In this document: one piece after another, positions 688 to 29,245 of the stretch | Position numbering within the stretch: the stretch's first letter is position 1 | How the letters are laid out: every line of letters starts with the position of its first letter | Origin: Aerococcus viridans | Lineage (GTDB): Bacteria; Bacillota; Bacilli; Lactobacillales; Aerococcaceae | Reading direction: 5' to 3' | Length of the DNA: 64,000 bases | Assembly (NCBI RefSeq): GCF_001543285.1 | Contig: NZ_CP014164.1 | Span: 248,001-312,000 of the forward strand | The notes under the pieces: generated by a model | What the model saw: only the letters and a program-made list of their open reading frames with translations | Databases searched by the model: none | What the model was told of the DNA's origin: nothing | Program-made: the position numbers and the translations under genes

Positions 688-1537
688 TTTAGCTATGTAT
701 CCAATCCCAAAATTGCCAGTGGCAGATTGGGTTGAAGCAGCAACAAACTGGTTAACCGTAACTCTATCAGGACTTTTTGGTGCCATTCAAAATGGCGGTT
801 CAGCCTTTATGAACGGTATTACGAGCTTACTATTATTAATCCCCCCATTTGCCTTTATCTTAATCGTGGCAGTGATTGCTTATTTTGTGAATAAGAAACG
901 ATTGTCATTATCTGCCTTTGCTTTGGTCGGTTTAGGCTATATCTTAAACCAAGGTTTATGGTCAGAATTAATGAACACAGTAACATTGGTACTGGTTTCT
1001 AGTGTAATCTCAATTATTATCGGTGTACCTTTAGGGATTTGGTCAGCGAAATCCAAAACTGTCCACAATATTTTAAAACCGATCTTAGACTTCATGCAGA
1101 CAATGCCAGCCTTTGTTTACCTAATTCCAGCCGTTGCCTTCTTCGGTATCGGTATTGTACCTGGTACATTCGCGTCAGTAATTTTCGCCTTACCACCAAC
1201 AGTACGATTTACTGAGTTAGGTATCAAACAAATTTCTACTGAATTAGTAGAAGCAGCAGACGCCTTTGGTTCAACTGGTAAACAAAAACTATTCAAAGTA
1301 GAATTACCTTTAGCTAAATCGACAATTATGGCTGGTGTAAACCAAACAGTTATGCTTGCCTTGTCTATGGTTGTTACAGCTTCAATGATTGGTGCACCAG
1401 GTCTAGGTCGCCAAGTACTAACAGCTCTACAACGTGCCTCAGTAGGTTCAGGGTTTGTGTCAGGTCTAGCGATTGTTATCTTAGCAATCTTGATTGACCG
1501 CTTAACAAATCGTTTCACAGCTGATAAAAATAGCTAA
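680..1537 (+). CDS. opuAB: Glycine betaine/choline-type ABC transporter permease
   Basis: Membrane permease of the osmoprotectant importer, 285 residues, in the normal range for ProW/OpuAB proteins. An N-terminal amphipathic stretch is followed by several hydrophobic segments (for example around residues 50-70, 95-120 and 230-275). The region near residues 170-200 (ELGIKQISTELVEAADAFG) matches the cytoplasmic EAA loop that docks onto the ATPase. The ATG lies inside the end of the ATPase gene, preceded by a purine-rich GAGGAGGAAG stretch. The binding-protein gene follows after 22 bp, giving the order ATPase, permease, binding protein. Expression is presumably controlled from a promoter upstream of the window. 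Confidence 0.93.
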   Translation: MFNLAMYPIPKLPVADWVEAATNWLTVTLSGLFGAIQNGGSAFMNGITSLLLLIPPFAFILIVAVIAYFVNKKRLSLSAFALVGLGYILNQGLWSELMNTVTLVLVSSVISIIIGVPLGIWSAKSKTVHNILKPILDFMQTMPAFVYLIPAVAFFGIGIVPGTFASVIFALPPTVRFTELGIKQISTELVEAADAFGSTGKQKLFKVELPLAKSTIMAGVNQTVMLALSMVVTASMIGAPGLGRQVLTALQRASVGSGFVSGLAIVILAILIDRLTNRFTADKNS

Positions 1538-3743: not shown

Positions 3744-5108
3744 TTAGAAAAGCATTGTGTCTGCGCCGTATGGTTGACCTTGAGCTTCTTGCGCTAAGAC
3801 ATTTAAGAAGTTCCAAGGACGGCTGAATTCTGGTTGGAAGAAGAAATCAGCTTGCGCTAATTGGTCTACAGTCCATTCAGCTTCAATCGCAACAGATACA
3901 GCATTAATAGCTTGAAGAATGTCATAAGTTGACATTAATTGAGCACCTAATATACGACCGTTATCTGCATCGTAATGAAGCTTCATTAAAACTTTTTCTT
4001 CGTCATGCATAAATGAAGGACGGATTAAGTCTTCTTTGTAAACAGATTTCACATTTCCTTGGTAAGAGTTTGCGTTAGCGTCTTTGATACCAGTAGTAGC
4101 GAATTTGTAGTCAAATACGGCAAGACCTGATGTACCGTTTACGCGACCAATTTTAGCGTCTGCATCACCACTTGCGTGACGAGCCATGATGACACCTTGG
4201 CGACGAGCGTTAGTTGCTAAAGCAATGTAAGCTTTCTCGTTTGTTGGTGCAAAAGGAATAGCAGTTGCATCACCGGCAGCGTAAACATCTTTAACTGAAG
4301 TTTCCATGTGTTCATTGACTTCAACAAAGCCACGACCATCAAGGGCTAACGTGTCTTTCAACCATTGTGTATTTGGACGAACACCAACACTGATAACAAC
4401 TGTATCGGCTTCGTAAGTTCCTTTATCTGTTACAACAGCAGTTACTTCGTTGTTTTCGTTAACTTTAAATTCTTTCACGCCTTCGCCAGTTTTAATCTTC
4501 ATACCTTTGTCTTCCATATGTTTTGTTAGAAGATCAGTGAATTCACTGTCAAGATAAGTTGGTAAGATTGAGTCTACGAAGTCAACAACTGTAACATCAA
4601 TACCAGCTTGTGCATAAGCAACTGCTACTTCGATACCGATGTATCCTGCACCAACAACAACGGCTTTTTTAGCTGATGCCATACGGTTTTTCACTTTATC
4701 TGCCCAGTTTCTACCACGTAAGTAGAAGATGTTTTCGTGTTGGTCATCTACATTAGGGATAGTTCCTGGCACGCCACCTGGAGAAAGCAATAGTTTGTCG
4801 TAACTTTCTGTAGCTTCCACACCGTCAGTAGTGCGTGTTGTAATTTCTTTTGTGTCTGGGTTGATGGCAATAACGCTTGTGTTCATGCGGATGTCAACAC
4901 CTTGTTCTTTATAAGATGCTTCATTTGCGTAGTGTAATTCATCCAAAGATTTTGCAATGTCTTCTAGATAGGACTGAATACCACATGATAGGAAAGAAGC
5001 GGTTGATCCAGCTTCAAATACAACAATTTCTGCATCTGAGTCTTTTTTCAATAGTGTTTGCACAGCTTCGAAACCTGCATGTGAAGTTCCTACTACAACG
5101 TATTTCAT
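3744..5108 (-). CDS. nox: NADH oxidase, CoA-disulfide-reductase/Nox family
   Basis: A flavoprotein that oxidises NADH, most likely reducing O2 to water, in the cytoplasm. The N-terminus (MKYVVVGTSHAGFEA) is the FAD-binding Rossmann motif. A single redox cysteine sits at residue 42 (SFLSCGIQ), the place used by water-forming Nox enzymes. A second dinucleotide fold (VVVGAGYIGIEVAVA) binds NADH, and the FAD motif VYAAGDAT follows. Its 454 residues fit the family. I chose the ATG 7 nt after GGAGGT over a TTG five codons upstream that overlaps the Shine-Dalgarno. CoA-disulfide reductase is the alternative. Its promoter carries the same operator as the rgg-shp locus (see the separate entry). Confidence 0.9.
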   Translation of the reverse strand: MKYVVVGTSHAGFEAVQTLLKKDSDAEIVVFEAGSTASFLSCGIQSYLEDIAKSLDELHYANEASYKEQGVDIRMNTSVIAINPDTKEITTRTTDGVEATESYDKLLLSPGGVPGTIPNVDDQHENIFYLRGRNWADKVKNRMASAKKAVVVGAGYIGIEVAVAYAQAGIDVTVVDFVDSILPTYLDSEFTDLLTKHMEDKGMKIKTGEGVKEFKVNENNEVTAVVTDKGTYEADTVVISVGVRPNTQWLKDTLALDGRGFVEVNEHMETSVKDVYAAGDATAIPFAPTNEKAYIALATNARRQGVIMARHASGDADAKIGRVNGTSGLAVFDYKFATTGIKDANANSYQGNVKSVYKEDLIRPSFMHDEEKVLMKLHYDADNGRILGAQLMSTYDILQAINAVSVAIEAEWTVDQLAQADFFFQPEFSRPWNFLNVLAQEAQGQPYGADTMLF

Positions 5109-5164: not shown

Positions 5165-5212
5165 ATTATACACCTCTTTGTGAAAAAAAGGGAGAATTGT
5201 CATATATAACAA
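5165..5212 (-). promoter_or_regulatory. nox promoter with a candidate Rgg operator
   Basis: On the minus strand, TATAAT (5165-5170) lies 57 nt before the nox ATG. The near-palindrome TTGTCATATATAACAA (5197-5212, flanked by AA and TT) ends exactly 26 nt upstream of it. The position expected for a -35 box reads CTCCCT, which is no match, so the promoter probably needs an activator. The same motif flanks the rgg gene at 25565-25580 and 26449-26464. The operator assignment is inferred from sequence identity and spacing. Confidence 0.7.
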
Positions 5213-24419: not shown

Positions 24420-25433
24420 ATGGCACACGAACATTTTGATATCGCCAAGAAGCAAGCGGATTTAACCGCTATGATGGACCGGGTCCTCGTCAATAACCGC
24501 CTTGGCCACGCCTATATTTTTGAAGGCATGGTAGGTTCTGGTCAAGAAGATATGGCCCTATATTTAGCGGCCTATTTGAATTGCCTCAATCCAGCTGACA
24601 AGGGGATACCTTGCGGGACATGTAACCATTGTCGTCGGATATTGTCCGCTGACTATCCGGATGTTTATCATATAGAACCGGACGGGAATACCATTAAAAT
24701 TGACCAAACGAGAGACCTAAAAGAACGGTTGTCCATGTCCTCACTTGAAGGAGACAACCAAATTTTTATTATCCATGAAGCAGAGAAAATGACTGTCAAC
24801 GCAGCCAATTCTTTGTTGAAGTTTATCGAGGAACCACATGAAAATGTCTATATTTTCCTCCTCACCAATAATAGGGACGCGATCCTGTCCACGATTGTGT
24901 CTCGTTGCCAGATGATTCATTTCCCCCAATTAAACAAGGTGGACTTACAAGTCCTATTTGAGGAAGCGGGGATTAAGCCAAGTATGGCGGCGACTCTGAC
25001 TGCTTTAACAAATGATGTGGGTGAAGCGACGGCGTTGGCAGAGAATGAAGATTTCCAGCAACGACTCAACTGGTCCTTGCAGTGGGTAGATTTAATCGTG
25101 AAAAAGGACCCTCGTGGTCTAACGATGGTGGCGTCAGACTGGATGAAGGGTCCTAAGGGTAGGGCGGATATGATTCAGGCCCTAAGTTTAGTGGCCTTTC
25201 ATTTCCATGATTTATTATATTTACGCCTGCATCCAGACCAGGGACAAGACAATCAAGCGCAATTGGTCTTTCCGAATGACTTTGGTAAATACCAAGGCAT
25301 GGTCAATAAAATAACAGTAGCAGACGCGACAAAAGCCCTACATTTAGTAGGACAAGCACAGCGGATGATCCAATCGAATGTGAGTGTACAGTCCGCTATG
25401 GAATATATGGTATTAGCCTACTGGAAAAAATAG
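24420..25433 (+). CDS. holB: DNA polymerase III delta' subunit
   Basis: Clamp-loader subunit of 337 residues, homologous to the DnaX ATPase core. It has a zinc-type CGTCNHCRRI, the QTRDLKERL segment, HEAEKMTVNAANSLLKFIEEP in the DEVH position and a C-terminal collar domain. Walker A is degenerate (EGMVGSGQEDM), as usual for delta'. The ATG follows AAAGGAG. In related genomes a PSP1-domain gene (yaaT) and then yabA follow holB; here 8 kb of accessory genes intervene and no yaaT is seen. Confidence 0.94.
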   Translation: MAHEHFDIAKKQADLTAMMDRVLVNNRLGHAYIFEGMVGSGQEDMALYLAAYLNCLNPADKGIPCGTCNHCRRILSADYPDVYHIEPDGNTIKIDQTRDLKERLSMSSLEGDNQIFIIHEAEKMTVNAANSLLKFIEEPHENVYIFLLTNNRDAILSTIVSRCQMIHFPQLNKVDLQVLFEEAGIKPSMAATLTALTNDVGEATALAENEDFQQRLNWSLQWVDLIVKKDPRGLTMVASDWMKGPKGRADMIQALSLVAFHFHDLLYLRLHPDQGQDNQAQLVFPNDFGKYQGMVNKITVADATKALHLVGQAQRMIQSNVSVQSAMEYMVLAYWKK

Positions 25434-25443
25434 GCAGAAATGC

Positions 25444-25509
25444 TTAAAGAACGCCAATGATGTCGAAAATTGCAATCGTAGTTAGTAGAGATAAGATTTT
25501 TTGTTTCAT
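25444..25509 (-). CDS. shp: SHP-type short hydrophobic pheromone precursor, 21 residues
   Basis: A 21-codon minus-strand gene: ATG at 25509-25507 and TAA at 25446-25444. The Shine-Dalgarno AAGGAGA lies 7 nt before the ATG. It begins with a positively charged MKQK, continues with a hydrophobic core and ends FDIIGVL. An acidic residue just before a run of Ile/Val/Leu at the C-terminus is the hallmark of streptococcal SHP pheromones (mature forms such as DILIIVGG or EGIIVIVVG). Its gene is divergent from an Rgg regulator, the classical rgg-shp arrangement. Mature peptide boundaries are unknown; DIIGVL or FDIIGVL is my guess. Secretion and import by general peptide and Opp/Ami transporters is inferred from family knowledge. 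Confidence 0.85.
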   Translation of the reverse strand: MKQKILSLLTTIAIFDIIGVL

Positions 25510-25524
25510 GCTTTCGTCTCCTTT

Positions 25525-25580
25525 TTGTTAAAATATAACAGAATTATAGGGGAAAATTCATTTTTTGTCATATATAACAA
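25525..25580. promoter_or_regulatory. shp-rgg divergent control region with a 16-bp operator
   Basis: TTGTCATATATAACAA (25565-25580) abuts the rgg Shine-Dalgarno. On the minus strand a TATAAT (25543-25548) lies 16 nt from it, and an extended -10 TGTTATATT (TATATT at 25532-25537) lies 27 nt away. The second spacing nearly equals the 26 nt seen at the other two operators. A looser copy, TTGTTAAAATATAACA (25525-25540), has one extra base between its half sites. The operator position predicts activation of shp and autoregulation of rgg. Confidence 0.7.
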
Positions 25581-25593
25581 AAGGAGCAACAGA

Positions 25594-26448
25594 ATGAATA
25601 TTGGAATAAGTTACAGAGATCTAAGAAGAGAGCGTGGTTTGACCCTTATGGATGTCACAACCACTGGGGAAGTGTCCTACTCCCAACTCTCAAAGTTCGA
25701 ACGTGGTGAAACAAGTATTACCATTCATCACTTGGTCAATCTAGTCCATAATCTGGGCATCTCCTTTGCTGAATTTATGACGGCCATTGAGGAATTCAAT
25801 AATCCTTATACATTCTACATCGAAGAAATTGATAGAGCTTATAAAAAAGGTGATATTGACGCCTTGAGCGCAATCGCACAAACCCAAGAAAACTTATATG
25901 GTGAAACCAACCAAATTTTATTTAAATACAATGCTATTATGACAAAGCTCTTATTGAATGATTTAACTGAGGTGGAAATTCCTGAAGCTGACAAGCATTT
26001 AATCAGTGAATACATTTTGAAATGTTCCGTTTGGACGAGCTACGAGGTGATTTTGCTAGGGAATTCCCTTCGAGGATTGACGAAGTCATTGCAAGACGTA
26101 TTGGTAGCGGACATGATTGCGAAATTGCCTACAATACAAGAAGGTAATCCCTTGAAGGTGCACATACTGAGCATCCTAATCAATGTCTGTTTCGATCGTT
26201 TACGGTCGGAGGAGACTGACGAAGTGAATGATATTATGGCAGCAATTCAACCACAGTTGAGCACAAATGCCTATTACTTTAAAAACCGCCTCTTATTCTT
26301 AAAAGGGATTGTGGCGATTGTTGAAGGTCAATTTGATGACGGGGTAAGTAAATGTCAAAAGGCGATTCAAGTTTTTGAACTATTCGATGAACCATTCGCA
26401 AAAATGCATCAAGATGAACTAGATACTTATGTTAAAAACTACGCATAA
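25594..26448 (+). CDS. rgg: Rgg-family (RRNPP) peptide-responsive transcriptional regulator
   Basis: A 284-residue regulator with an N-terminal XRE helix-turn-helix (residues 1-65) and the family's typical SQLSKFERGET recognition segment. An all-helical C-terminal domain of about 200 residues follows, as in Rgg/GadR/MutR proteins, where TPR-like repeats bind the pheromone. The ATG is preceded by AAGGAG; longer upstream starts lack a ribosome-binding site and would run through the operator. It pairs with the divergent shp gene and is flanked by operator copies on both sides. The ligand is presumably the SHP product; targets are inferred from the shared operator (shp, a short RNA downstream, nox). 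Confidence 0.9.
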   Translation: MNIGISYRDLRRERGLTLMDVTTTGEVSYSQLSKFERGETSITIHHLVNLVHNLGISFAEFMTAIEEFNNPYTFYIEEIDRAYKKGDIDALSAIAQTQENLYGETNQILFKYNAIMTKLLLNDLTEVEIPEADKHLISEYILKCSVWTSYEVILLGNSLRGLTKSLQDVLVADMIAKLPTIQEGNPLKVHILSILINVCFDRLRSEETDEVNDIMAAIQPQLSTNAYYFKNRLLFLKGIVAIVEGQFDDGVSKCQKAIQVFELFDEPFAKMHQDELDTYVKNYA

Positions 26449-26496
26449 TTGTTATATATAACAATTTTCAGAATACCACCAAAAATCCGGTATAAT
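26449..26496 (+). promoter_or_regulatory. Perfect palindromic operator plus activator-type promoter after rgg
   Basis: TTGTTATATATAACAA (26449-26464) is a perfect palindrome, extendable to 20 bp with its flanking AA and TT. It begins one base after the rgg stop. TATAAT (26491-26496) lies 26 nt further on, and the -35 position (TCAGAA) is no match. Motif and spacing are the same as at nox. Confidence 0.72.
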
Positions 26497-26502
26497 GTAG
26501 GT

Positions 26503-26616
26503 TAACAATAAGAGTTTACATAATTACCATTTGATGGACTGATGGGCAATAAAAGTAGTTCTATGCGAAATAAGCGTATGGACGATCTGTAACGACTATT
26601 GTTGCAGGTCTTTTTT
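26503..26616 (+). ncRNA. Candidate short RNA under the Rgg operator
   Basis: A start about 7 nt after TATAAT and the terminator at 26584-26616 define a transcript of roughly 110 nt. Its only ATG frame of note (from 26542, 16 codons, MGNKSSSMRNKRMDDL) has no ribosome-binding site and is not hydrophobic, so I favour a non-coding RNA. A tiny unusual peptide mRNA is the alternative. Confidence 0.5.
26584..26616 (+). terminator. Terminator ending the short Rgg-controlled transcript
   Basis: GATCTGTAAC pairs with GTTGCAGGTC (ten pairs, two G-T) around GACTATT, followed by T6. Confidence 0.8.
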
Positions 26617-26799
26617 CTATTAGTAGTGAATGGGCTGGCGTCCTTCTTTTCGCTGTGGGAGGCACAGCCACGGACTATATAATCTTTCAGAAAATAGAAT
26701 GAGTAGGGTTCATGTGTAGTGATATAAAAATAACTTTAAATATATAATTTGTGCATAAAATATTCGTACTGTTATGCGTTAGATTTGGGAGGCATTATT

Positions 26800-27375
26800 A
26801 TGAAGAAGATTTTATTACTATCTAGTTTAAGTGTGCTTTTGTTTGCTTGTTCTAATCAAACGGATGAGGAAAAAGTAATCAGTGATTCGCCAACCTCCTC
26901 AAGTGTGGAACAAGAAGCCAGTTCAGAGGAAGCACAAGCATTATATCAGAGTACGATACAAAACTTTACTAGGATTACTGCAGGAGAGATTACAAGCAAA
27001 ATCAATAATGGCGATGGTTTTTACCTATTTATAGGTGCAGAGGATTCGGCAGATGCAACGACTTTTGCCACTAAACTTGACGAAGCCTCCTCCATCTTTG
27101 AGACCCCATCTTCAGCTGATATTGAAGGCGTCATTTATTACTTAGATTTAACCAGTGCTAGCGATCAAGCAACTGCAACATTTACTGAGGATTATGGTAT
27201 TGATACTGTACCTGCCTTTCATTTCTTTGAAGGGCAGATTTACCATAGTAAAATCGAAGATATCGATAGCGAGAATATTAGCGTTAAAGAGATCCAAGAC
27301 TTTATCAATACGCCTTATCAGGATGAACATGTCGCAACAGCACCAGACGAGAACATGGATAATGGAGACAGTTAA
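26800..27375 (+). CDS. Thioredoxin-fold lipoprotein
   Basis: A 191-residue surface lipoprotein: signal peptide MKKILLLSSLSVLLFAC with lipobox LFAC, then a Ser/Glu-rich spacer to about residue 55. The rest has a thioredoxin-like fold, with a beta strand GFYLFIGAED where the redox motif would start and a cis-proline segment TVPAFHFFEG. No CxxC is present, so it is not a disulfide oxidoreductase; it resembles bacteriocin-accessory (PedC-like) proteins. The start is the ATG after GGGAGG. A TATAAT at 26678-26683 may be its promoter. It lies just beyond the rgg locus, but a terminator separates them. Confidence 0.8.
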   Translation: MKKILLLSSLSVLLFACSNQTDEEKVISDSPTSSSVEQEASSEEAQALYQSTIQNFTRITAGEITSKINNGDGFYLFIGAEDSADATTFATKLDEASSIFETPSSADIEGVIYYLDLTSASDQATATFTEDYGIDTVPAFHFFEGQIYHSKIEDIDSENISVKEIQDFINTPYQDEHVATAPDENMDNGDS

Positions 27376-27756
27376 TTTTCCATTACTAAGACCATTTAAG
27401 GCGTGTTTTTTGGATAAGAACTGAATCATGGCAAGTGTTCTATGTGTTATTTTACTGATTGTGTAAGCCGTTATTATTAAGGGCGCCTATCCGTTTAACA
27501 TAAAAATCGATGTATCAGTTATTTTCCAAATGTATATTGAGGCTTATAATAAAAAGATTTTTGAGGTTCTTTTACAAATAGTGTTGGTAAATAATTTCAA
27601 AGCACACGAATACGTTTTTTAGTTTTTAATAATAATTAAGAAATCAATAAAGTTAAATGCCATGCACGCTGTGATGTGTTTGGCTTTTTTCTTGCCTTTA
27701 GACAAGGGAAGTGACCAATGAGATAACATTTCTAACAAATGGTGTTTTGTCCTTCA

Positions 27757-27863
27757 GTGTACGTTCCTTAAAAGCCGTGGCACCAGCGAGAGCCAAGGTC
27801 TCTCAGCTTTGAAATCGAGCCTTAGTCTCGATTTCATGCTTGTTCACGGCTAAGGACGTACAC
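27757..27863. repeat. 107-nt three-way-junction-like inverted repeat inside the ISL3 element
   Basis: The outer arms GTGTACG-CCTTA and TAAGG-CGTACAC pair, then GCCGTG/CACGGC. Two hairpins lie inside: GAGAGCC/GGTCTCTC and the perfect nine-pair GAAATCGAG/CTCGATTTC. There is no open frame. It resembles a structured RNA or a passenger repeat carried by the IS. Confidence 0.75.
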
Positions 27864-27904
27864 TTTCAGTCCTCTTTATTCAAAAATATACCACTATCCC
27901 TGGG

Positions 27905-29245
27905 TTAGCTTGCCATCCCCTCAAATGTAAAAGGTTTAGGATTGGATGGTTTGTAATTTAATTTGAATTGGACTAAAATTCTTGCACGTAAATGATGGAA
28001 GTTCGAATATCCAAAACCTGTTCGTTTAATTAATTTAATTTTATTATTAATACCTTCGGTAGGACCATTTGATACAGTATATTTTAAGGCGTTATGTATA
28101 TAAGGCAAGAATTTGGCCAATGTTCTGATAGTTCTTCTCGTACGACTTGGAAAAGTTTGGTTCTTAGTCCCATGTAGGATTTCATTGAAAATATTGATAT
28201 CATGAGTTGAAATGGCATATTTTAGTTCATTCATCAGGGTATAAGTAACTAAAAGTTCGTGTGAGATACTCAAAAGATAATCAACAATACGTTGTTCTGA
28301 TATTGCTTCACCAAATTGACGAACATAATGTGTATCCGTGAAATTTAAATCTTCAGCGTTCTTTAACAACAATTTCCATTGTTTTTTGAGTTTATTGTAG
28401 TCCGATGGACGGCTTGTTTTGATAGCATTCATCACTTTAATACGAATAGAATTGATTGTTTCATTCAACAGCTTTACTATATGGAATCGATCAATGACAA
28501 TCTTCGCATTAGGGAAACATGTGCGAATGACCTCTAGATAAGGTGTATATAAATCAATCGAAACTGTCTTCACGCTGCTTCGAGCGGTCCAGGTAAAAGA
28601 AGAAAAGTAATCGATGAGCGACGCTTGTTTTCTATCAACGACAATATCAATTAGCCTTCTATTATGCGTGTCCACAAGGACAGCACTCATCGCATTGGCT
28701 ACACGACTAGTCGATTTAAACTCATCTACACCGAGGTGATTCGGGAGATAATTTCCCTTAGGTGATAGTCCCATACTTGCTTTCATTAAAGTTCTGGCCA
28801 CTGTTGGAGAAGAGACATGATAACGTTTAGCGATTAACCGCATAGATTGCGTTTCAACCAATTCGGAGCTAATTTGACTTTTAATGGTTTTAGAAATACA
28901 GCAAAATTTTTCAACTAATGGTGTTTCAGCGATAAAAGTTTGTGCACAATGTTTACAATAAAAGCGTTGCTTCTGTAATTTAAGTAAAACAGGATTAGTA
29001 GCTGTGTTCGGTAATCGAATGATAGCTGGTTTAAAGCCATGTTTGATGATATCTTGATTACCAGTATTCTTTACACCACAGTGCATACAAGCCTTAGGCT
29101 TGTACGTAAGAACCCCATGTAAAACGAAATGATTTATTTCATAATACTTTTCAAGTGGCAACAGATGCATAGATTTTGGTATTGTAATATCAATATTATA
29201 GTCGTAAATACCGCAAAGTTGTTTTATAATAGATGTATGGGACAT
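27905..29245 (-). CDS. ISL3-family transposase
   Basis: A DDE transposase of 446 residues. The N-terminal zinc-type fingers are CMHCGVKNTG and FYCKHCAQTF, followed by a helix-turn-helix region (RLIAKRYHVSSPTVARTL). The catalytic core has D in HLGVDEFKS, D in the VIDRFHIVK region and E in NGPTEGINNKIK. The ATG follows AAGAAGGA; a longer upstream start has no ribosome-binding site. It appears intact, so the element may be active. Confidence 0.93.
   Translation of the reverse strand: MSHTSIIKQLCGIYDYNIDITIPKSMHLLPLEKYYEINHFVLHGVLTYKPKACMHCGVKNTGNQDIIKHGFKPAIIRLPNTATNPVLLKLQKQRFYCKHCAQTFIAETPLVEKFCCISKTIKSQISSELVETQSMRLIAKRYHVSSPTVARTLMKASMGLSPKGNYLPNHLGVDEFKSTSRVANAMSAVLVDTHNRRLIDIVVDRKQASLIDYFSSFTWTARSSVKTVSIDLYTPYLEVIRTCFPNAKIVIDRFHIVKLLNETINSIRIKVMNAIKTSRPSDYNKLKKQWKLLLKNAEDLNFTDTHYVRQFGEAISEQRIVDYLLSISHELLVTYTLMNELKYAISTHDINIFNEILHGTKNQTFPSRTRRTIRTLAKFLPYIHNALKYTVSNGPTEGINNKIKLIKRTGFGYSNFHHLRARILVQFKLNYKPSNPKPFTFEGMAS

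Follow-up and report, generated by a model that had tools for sequence, protein, structure and literature searches.

Rgg/SHP signalling has been described chiefly in streptococci, as far as the excerpted text of PMC9765709 goes. In the excerpts cited here, mature SHPs of Groups I and II start with Asp or Glu (PMC3679016, PMC13361665), a rule that serves for SHP prediction (PMC12445099), and replacing the Asp of SHP3 by Asn reduced activity (PMC3150281). The excerpts also give two SHPs with Cys at the acidic position (PMC3679016), one with Ala, and MSP (VLPFFLLPIL), an acid-free peptide of an Rgg-type receptor (both PMC12445099). MutRS, ComRS and RopB/SIP likewise combine Rgg-type receptors with peptides that need no acidic start, as in the Aerococcus pair described here. 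The XIP of ComRS carries a WW motif. Enterococcal sex pheromones, which work with PrgX, are likewise short C-terminal peptides, hydrophobic and with no fixed acidic residue. They are cut from lipoprotein signal peptides, matured by Eep, and control plasmid transfer, whereas the Aerococcus peptide has a dedicated gene beside its receptor. Rgg, SHP and Aerococcus were not found together in the literature searched; Aerococcus, quorum sensing and Rgg are co-mentioned in one paper, each once, judging by the search listing.

We analysed a window, meaning the whole 64-kb stretch of Aerococcus DNA, holding what is probably an Rgg-type peptide quorum-sensing pair, with a copy of a 16-bp dyad ahead of the peptide gene (shp), a lipoprotein gene and an NADH peroxidase-like gene (npr) each. 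The pair resembles Rgg2/Rgg3-SHP2/SHP3 of Streptococcus (Groups I/II) in its divergent shp and rgg genes, the Rgg fold, a hydrophobic precursor with a basic start (20-25 residues across both systems), a dyad at the shp promoter and the presence of processing-family genes. It differs from these systems in its distant receptor (19-23% identity to Rgg2/Rgg3 in structural alignments), a pheromone without conserved Asp/Glu, a dyad sequence of its own, a single Rgg and an NADH peroxidase gene among the likely targets. Machinery of this kind is known already; what is new is an acid-free signal in three of four versions and the predicted regulon of the 16-bp dyad.

The Rgg receptor and its distribution

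25594..26448, plus strand: rgg, 284 aa, ATG at 25594, HTH and Rgg C-terminal domain

The rgg product carries an N-terminal HTH domain (PF01381, 29.2 bits, cut-off 23) and an Rgg_C domain (PF21259, 85.5 bits, cut-off 27, 4.6e-24), and matches TIGR01716 at 106.9 bits (cut-off 36.9, 1.1e-30). The closest solved sequences are Rgg3 (1.1e-17) and then Rgg2 (4.1e-15). ComR appears in the same search through chains of the HTH domain only (E 0.07 and 0.086), and by sequence scores the window Rgg is closer to Rgg3/Rgg2 than to RopB or ComR. The predicted model has the TPR-like fold of pheromone receptors, with a mean pLDDT of 77.7 that drops below 50 at residues 144-158, inside the Rgg_C match. Rgg2, Rgg3 or Rgg144 account for 18 of the best 20 Foldseek matches, at whole-chain TM-scores of 0.3-0.5 against solved structures, and the PrgX fold is also among the matches. 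Matches outside RRNPP (26S proteasome, CHIP, AIP) were taken as common helical repeats.

Orthologues of this Rgg occur in 4 of 15 genus genomes at 75-100% identity: the window genome (G000), G007 (95% identical), G013 and G003. The family model exceeds its cut-off in a fifth genome, G011, through a distant paralogue, and the window genome has one Rgg alone over that cut-off. After the four orthologues, the best match among 60 relatives lies in another family (G054, 32%). Family-wide, orthologues are found in 4 of 76 genomes (E 3e-167 or better; next match 7.7e-36). Source names among 22 protein-database homologues include A. urinaeequi, A. viridans and an Aerococcaceae bacterium. HolB identity is 93-97% among the four carriers and 42-50% in ten other genomes, with 61-72% for fragments from G009, by which measure G009 is the nearest genus member without Rgg. 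The carriers form one clade, and the co-occurrence of Rgg and dyad therefore counts as a single event. G009 has holB followed directly by a presumably BioY-like gene, and in carriers whose contig reaches so far the rgg cassette lies between these two genes.

The peptide gene and its conservation

25444..25509, minus strand: shp-like gene of 21 codons, MKQKILSLLTTIAIFDIIGVL; frame unbroken at all 4 orthologous loci
25518..25524, minus strand: Shine-Dalgarno of shp, AAAGGAG, 8 nt spacing to the ATG; identical in all four genomes
25543..25571, minus strand: shp promoter, ATGACA-17-TATAAT, 11 of 12 matches
25532..25537, minus strand: alternative shp -10, TATATT

The first-pass annotation proposed a 21-codon reading frame with a good Shine-Dalgarno divergent to rgg, and the positions of frame, ribosome-binding site and regulator bear this out. 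A profile for SHP-like frames (15-30 aa, ATG, strong Shine-Dalgarno, at least two K/R in residues 2-6, hydrophobic body) found 25444-25509 as its one match in the entire window. Forty order-2 Markov windows of equal size gave one such frame altogether (mean 0.025), a comparison that serves as a guide and not as a clean P value since the profile was chosen post hoc. The shp promoter scores highest among 10 promoter-like sites in 25300-27500, a total not above chance (7.9 in shuffles). Its TATAAT is retained in G007 and G013 and reads CATAAC in G003. Two other short, overlapping frames in the gap between shp and rgg were rejected, namely plus-strand MMSKIAIV... (missing from G013 and G003) and minus-strand MTKNEFSP... 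(missing from G003).

The four peptides are MKQKILSLLTTIAIFDIIGVL in the window genome, MKQKILSLLTTIAIFGIIGVL in G007, MKRKILSLLTNISIFGIIGVL in G013 and MKQKFLSLLAATSIFGTIGVL in G003, with M1, K2, K4, LSLL (6-9), IF (14-15) and IGVL (18-21) invariant throughout. The frame is intact at every orthologous locus, as the first-pass annotation had made its proposal depend on, and the C-terminus, whose conservation it had suggested as a check, is well preserved as IF[DG][IT]IGVL. The window genome and G013 differ at 19 nucleotides of shp (3/3/13 by codon position), altering 4 residues against 10.1 expected from 20,000 random placements (P 0.00015). Constraint is clearest at the C-terminus, where 8 of 10 differences in the last 8 codons fall at third positions and one of the 8 changed codons alters its residue (1 altered against 3.7 expected, P 0.0025). 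Against G003, 7 residues are altered versus 11.0 expected (P 0.012), with a marginal result for the last 8 codons (2 versus 3.7, P 0.058). The comparison of G013 with G003 gave no constraint (6 residues altered by 8 nucleotide differences, P 0.89), and the 2 differences between the window genome and G007 are too few to inform on it. Divergence biased to third positions with few residue changes argues that the peptide is real. By this substitution pattern, the shp-like frame is a real peptide gene under selection. To this extent the first-pass proposal holds, the regulator opposite the peptide gene being Rgg2/3-like and the organism an Aerococcus (nearest named Rgg: Aerococcus sp. UBA6277, 95%).

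Short length, hydrophobicity and a basic N-terminus are traits common to small membrane-active proteins of the type I toxin kind and to leader peptides, either of which might account for the frame in place of a pheromone. We consider this very improbable. The clearest constraint falls on the C-terminal codons, as a mature pheromone would lead one to expect, and in all four genomes the gene lies divergent to Rgg and has a dyad at its promoter. An Rfam search, which reveals curated families only, found no family at shp, and across 24500-28000 it gave two microRNA matches alone, far under the gathering score. The product of the shp-like gene very probably acts as a peptide signal to the adjoining Rgg.

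The acidic residue and the mature peptide

The first-pass annotation matched the peptide to streptococcal SHPs by an acidic residue and proposed DIIGVL as the mature form. Neither point carries over to the relatives. The residue opening DIIGVL is Asp in the window genome and Gly in the other three, and the Asp or Glu start of Group I and II pheromones is not shared by the four versions. Since Gly stands at the Asp position in 3 of 4 genomes, a mature DIIGVL is doubtful, and the conservation favours a form in which the invariant IF is present. From four sequences, the Asp of the window genome looks derived, and the mature pheromone probably includes IF.

An ordinary streptococcal SHP of Group I or II, cut before Asp, would share the divergent orientation and, in the window genome, the Asp followed by hydrophobic residues. 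This identity is quite improbable given that Gly occupies the position in three genomes, including G007 with its nearly identical Rgg, and streptococcal-type cleavage ahead of Asp is not a likely rule for the Aerococcus peptide. As in Groups I and II, rgg has a divergent gene for a short hydrophobic precursor at 4 of 4 loci. The gene lies upstream of rgg, unlike Group III, in which shp is convergent and overlaps the rgg 3' end. The peptide contains no Trp, and neither the ComR-like receptor nor the WW motif of ComRS was found. We call the peptide an acid-free, SHP-like pheromone; it would be matured and secreted and would serve the Rgg2/3-like regulator.

Other Rgg loci

A looser scan for short reading frames at 30 Rgg loci gave weak candidates at most of them and was replaced by a strict SHP profile over 55 loci, some fetched twice. 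Candidates remained at 8 of the 55: the four orthologues, L020 and L119 (one G031 locus fetched twice), L123 (poor) and L112. L112 belongs to G069, apparently a member of Aerococcaceae of a genus other than Aerococcus, and encodes MKKNLKFILMFLLVMDIIVIVGG divergent to Rgg (1271-1342, minus strand of the reverse-complemented locus). Its Rgg matches S. thermophilus Rgg3 at 1.1e-131. The peptide and the Rgg3 match mark L112 as a near-canonical Group I pair, located in the same family but outside the lineage of the window. The L112 pair shares the divergent layout with the window pair but differs by its near-canonical DIIVIVGG end and is not orthologous; it was possibly acquired by horizontal transfer. 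At the G031 locus, a 17-residue frame, MKKIIKFTIMLLIFVTI, with a good Shine-Dalgarno lies divergent to an rgg frame broken by a stop codon.

A 16-bp dyad at three promoters

25565..25580, no strand: site A, TTGTCATATATAACAA, over the shp -35, shortly ahead of the rgg Shine-Dalgarno
26449..26464, no strand: site C, TTGTTATATATAACAA, directly after the rgg stop codon, before the lipoprotein gene
5197..5212, no strand: site N, TTGTCATATATAACAA, upstream of the npr gene at 3744-5108
26467..26496, plus strand: promoter-like TTCAGA-18-TATAAT downstream of site C
26584..26610, plus strand: terminator-like hairpin of 12 pairs, past promoter C and ahead of the lipoprotein gene, with its stem conserved in G013
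26800..27375, plus strand: lipoprotein gene, probable target
3744..5108, minus strand: NADH peroxidase-like gene (npr), 454 aa, probable target

Two operators had been proposed between shp and rgg. Of these, the dyad at 25565-25580 has good support; the one at 25525-25541 was dropped as an operator, as it is not preserved as a dyad in G013 and G003 (TTGTTAGAATATAGCAG), and a loose pattern built from it matched the window 3 times, with 1.73 matches expected by chance. Exact copies of the first dyad, TTGTYATATATRACAA, number three in the whole 2.2-Mb genome, with 0.010 expected from base composition, and those at 26449-26464 and 5197-5212 are additional to the first-pass annotation. Site A is exact in the window genome and G007, with one mismatch in G013 and G003. 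Site C is exact in the same two genomes, has one mismatch in G013 and is absent from G003, because rgg there is directly followed by a gene that we take to be BioY-like. Site N matches at 16 of 16 positions in the window genome, G007 and G013, and at 13 of 16 in G003. An exact 15-base core is present in 5 of 15 genus genomes, namely all four with rgg and, of the 11 without it, G006 alone, and reversed-pattern controls of the core gave none in the 15 genomes. The sole exact core of G003 lies at the start of a gene that is presumably RidA-like, and the core is thus exact as an operator in three of the four rgg genomes. The single exact core of G006 (G006:C4:86532-86546), a genome without this Rgg, lies downstream of a presumably DivIVA-like gene.

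Degenerate matches are of little weight, given two-mismatch counts of 12, 12, 15 and 11 versus 9, 2, 7 and 6 for controls (G000, G007, G013 and G003, respectively). A dyad-like match at genome position 327820 is explained by the coding start of what we take to be the RidA-like gene, likewise in G003 and G013. One-mismatch matches of the window genome at 179815, 449453 and 1606894 were rejected as lying over a gene start, between converging genes and within a reading frame, respectively. The relatives hold further one-mismatch matches (2 in G007, 2 in G013, 3 in G003).

Spacing to the promoters is regular. At both site C and site N, 34.5 bp separate the centre of the dyad from the first base of the best -10 hexamer, in 3 of 3 genomes that carry the two sites. 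The hexamers are TATAAT, TAGAAT and TAAAAT at site C, with weaker ones at other distances, and TATAAT, TATAAT and TATACT at site N (window copy 5170-5165, minus strand). At shp the distance between dyad centre and -10 is 24.5 bp in 3 of 4 genomes; for the alternative TATATT it is 35.5 bp, or 34.5 bp in G003.

The dyad might belong to another regulator, such as a redox sensor of npr, with rgg and shp among its targets and Rgg acting elsewhere or on shp only. A peroxide enzyme among the targets would fit such a sensor, as would the TTGT...ACAA ends of the dyad, which resemble the Rex box. Rgg co-occurrence is also weak evidence, given that the four genomes are one clade. We nevertheless judge this reading unlikely. 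Two of the three exact dyads flank rgg itself, and ten npr homologues (53-57% identity) from nine genomes without this Rgg carry no dyad, scoring at best 9-12 of 16 in the upstream region. For comparison, 396 of 400 random window stretches score 9-12 and four score 16, the latter presumably over real sites. The scan covered homologues of 53-57% identity, and G005 and G009, with paralogues of 33-41% only, lie outside it. In G003, the absence of site C, the 13 of 16 match at site N and the changed shp -10 appear together, as if by joint decay. With its extended Rgg C-terminus, G003 looks like a circuit in decay. We retain Rgg as the probable regulator at the dyad.

Predicted targets

The closest solved relative of the npr product is NADH peroxidase (E 2.3e-118), and the NCBIfam model for NADH oxidase scores 367 against a cut-off of 600. 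The dyad sites suggest that the Rgg/peptide pair also controls this gene. In the literature searched, the four papers that mention both Aerococcus viridans and NADH peroxidase do not deal with this regulation, judging by titles.

The lipoprotein gene product has no Pfam match of its own. Its match to the thioredoxin-like PedC/BrcD model (24.3 bits) is far under the cut-off of 120. All 8 database homologues carry PF20207, and among the three that are named, two are 'thioredoxin' of Aerococcus viridans and the third a 'hypothetical protein'. The sole cysteine lies in the lipoprotein signal, leaving no CxxC. A leader of about 110 nt (26503-26615) would run from promoter C and close in the conserved hairpin before the gene, making it a candidate attenuated leader or small RNA. 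A reading frame within it (MGNKSSSMRNK...) is not preserved in G007 or G013 by alignment reading. In G013, a LytTR response regulator and an ABC/SpoIIM cluster (L034 9109-13527) follow the lipoprotein gene, the regulator being nearest to AgrA at 98.9 bits (cut-off 400). The window has a transposase in their place, presumably ISL3-like.

Processing genes and a proposed circuit

Gene families for the processing of Group I and II SHPs (Eep, PptAB/EcsAB, Opp) are represented. RseP/Eep exceeds its cut-off in all four rgg genomes, as does SBP_bac_5, and EcsB, which we take to stand for PptB, occurs in three; it was not found in G007, which is 93% complete. The window genome has all three. Among 14 control genomes, RseP is found in 14, EcsB in 2 and SBP_bac_5 in 11. 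RseP and SBP_bac_5 are widespread, and the machinery thus permits the model and is no proof of it.

From sequence and predicted structure we infer transcription, processing, secretion, uptake, peptide and DNA binding, and the direction of regulation. The 21-residue precursor would be expressed from the divergent shp promoter, cleaved in the membrane by an Eep/RseP-type protease and exported through a transporter of the EcsAB/PptAB type. The C-terminal 7-8 residues, (I)F[D/G]IIGVL, would re-enter through the Opp oligopeptide permease and be bound inside the cell by the TPR-like domain of Rgg, which would sit on the 16-bp dyad, probably as a dimer. At shp the dyad lies over a near-consensus -35, and Rgg could thus hold or boost the gene of its own signal. 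Promoters C and N have poor -35 boxes, with the dyad one helical turn further upstream, which would be an activator position. Promoter C may drive the small leader with its terminator and then the lipoprotein gene, and promoter N the NADH peroxidase gene. The outcome would couple peroxide defence and a surface lipoprotein to cell density, and a density-dependent circuit that includes peroxide defence is likely. The fullest version is a one-receptor Aerococcus Rgg circuit with an acid-free pheromone, in which hydrogen peroxide removal follows cell density by way of one new 16-bp operator, and the Gly-to-Asp change in the pheromone core of one genome possibly marks a pherotype. This version is plausible, though we lean slightly against all of its parts holding together.

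The occurrence of a peptide that is under selection and mostly acid-free next to a receptor of the Rgg2/3 kind suggests that prediction by the Asp/Glu rule would miss real pairs outside Streptococcus. The predicted regulon of peptide, lipoprotein and NADH peroxidase poses the question of whether peroxide handling in Aerococcus varies with cell density.
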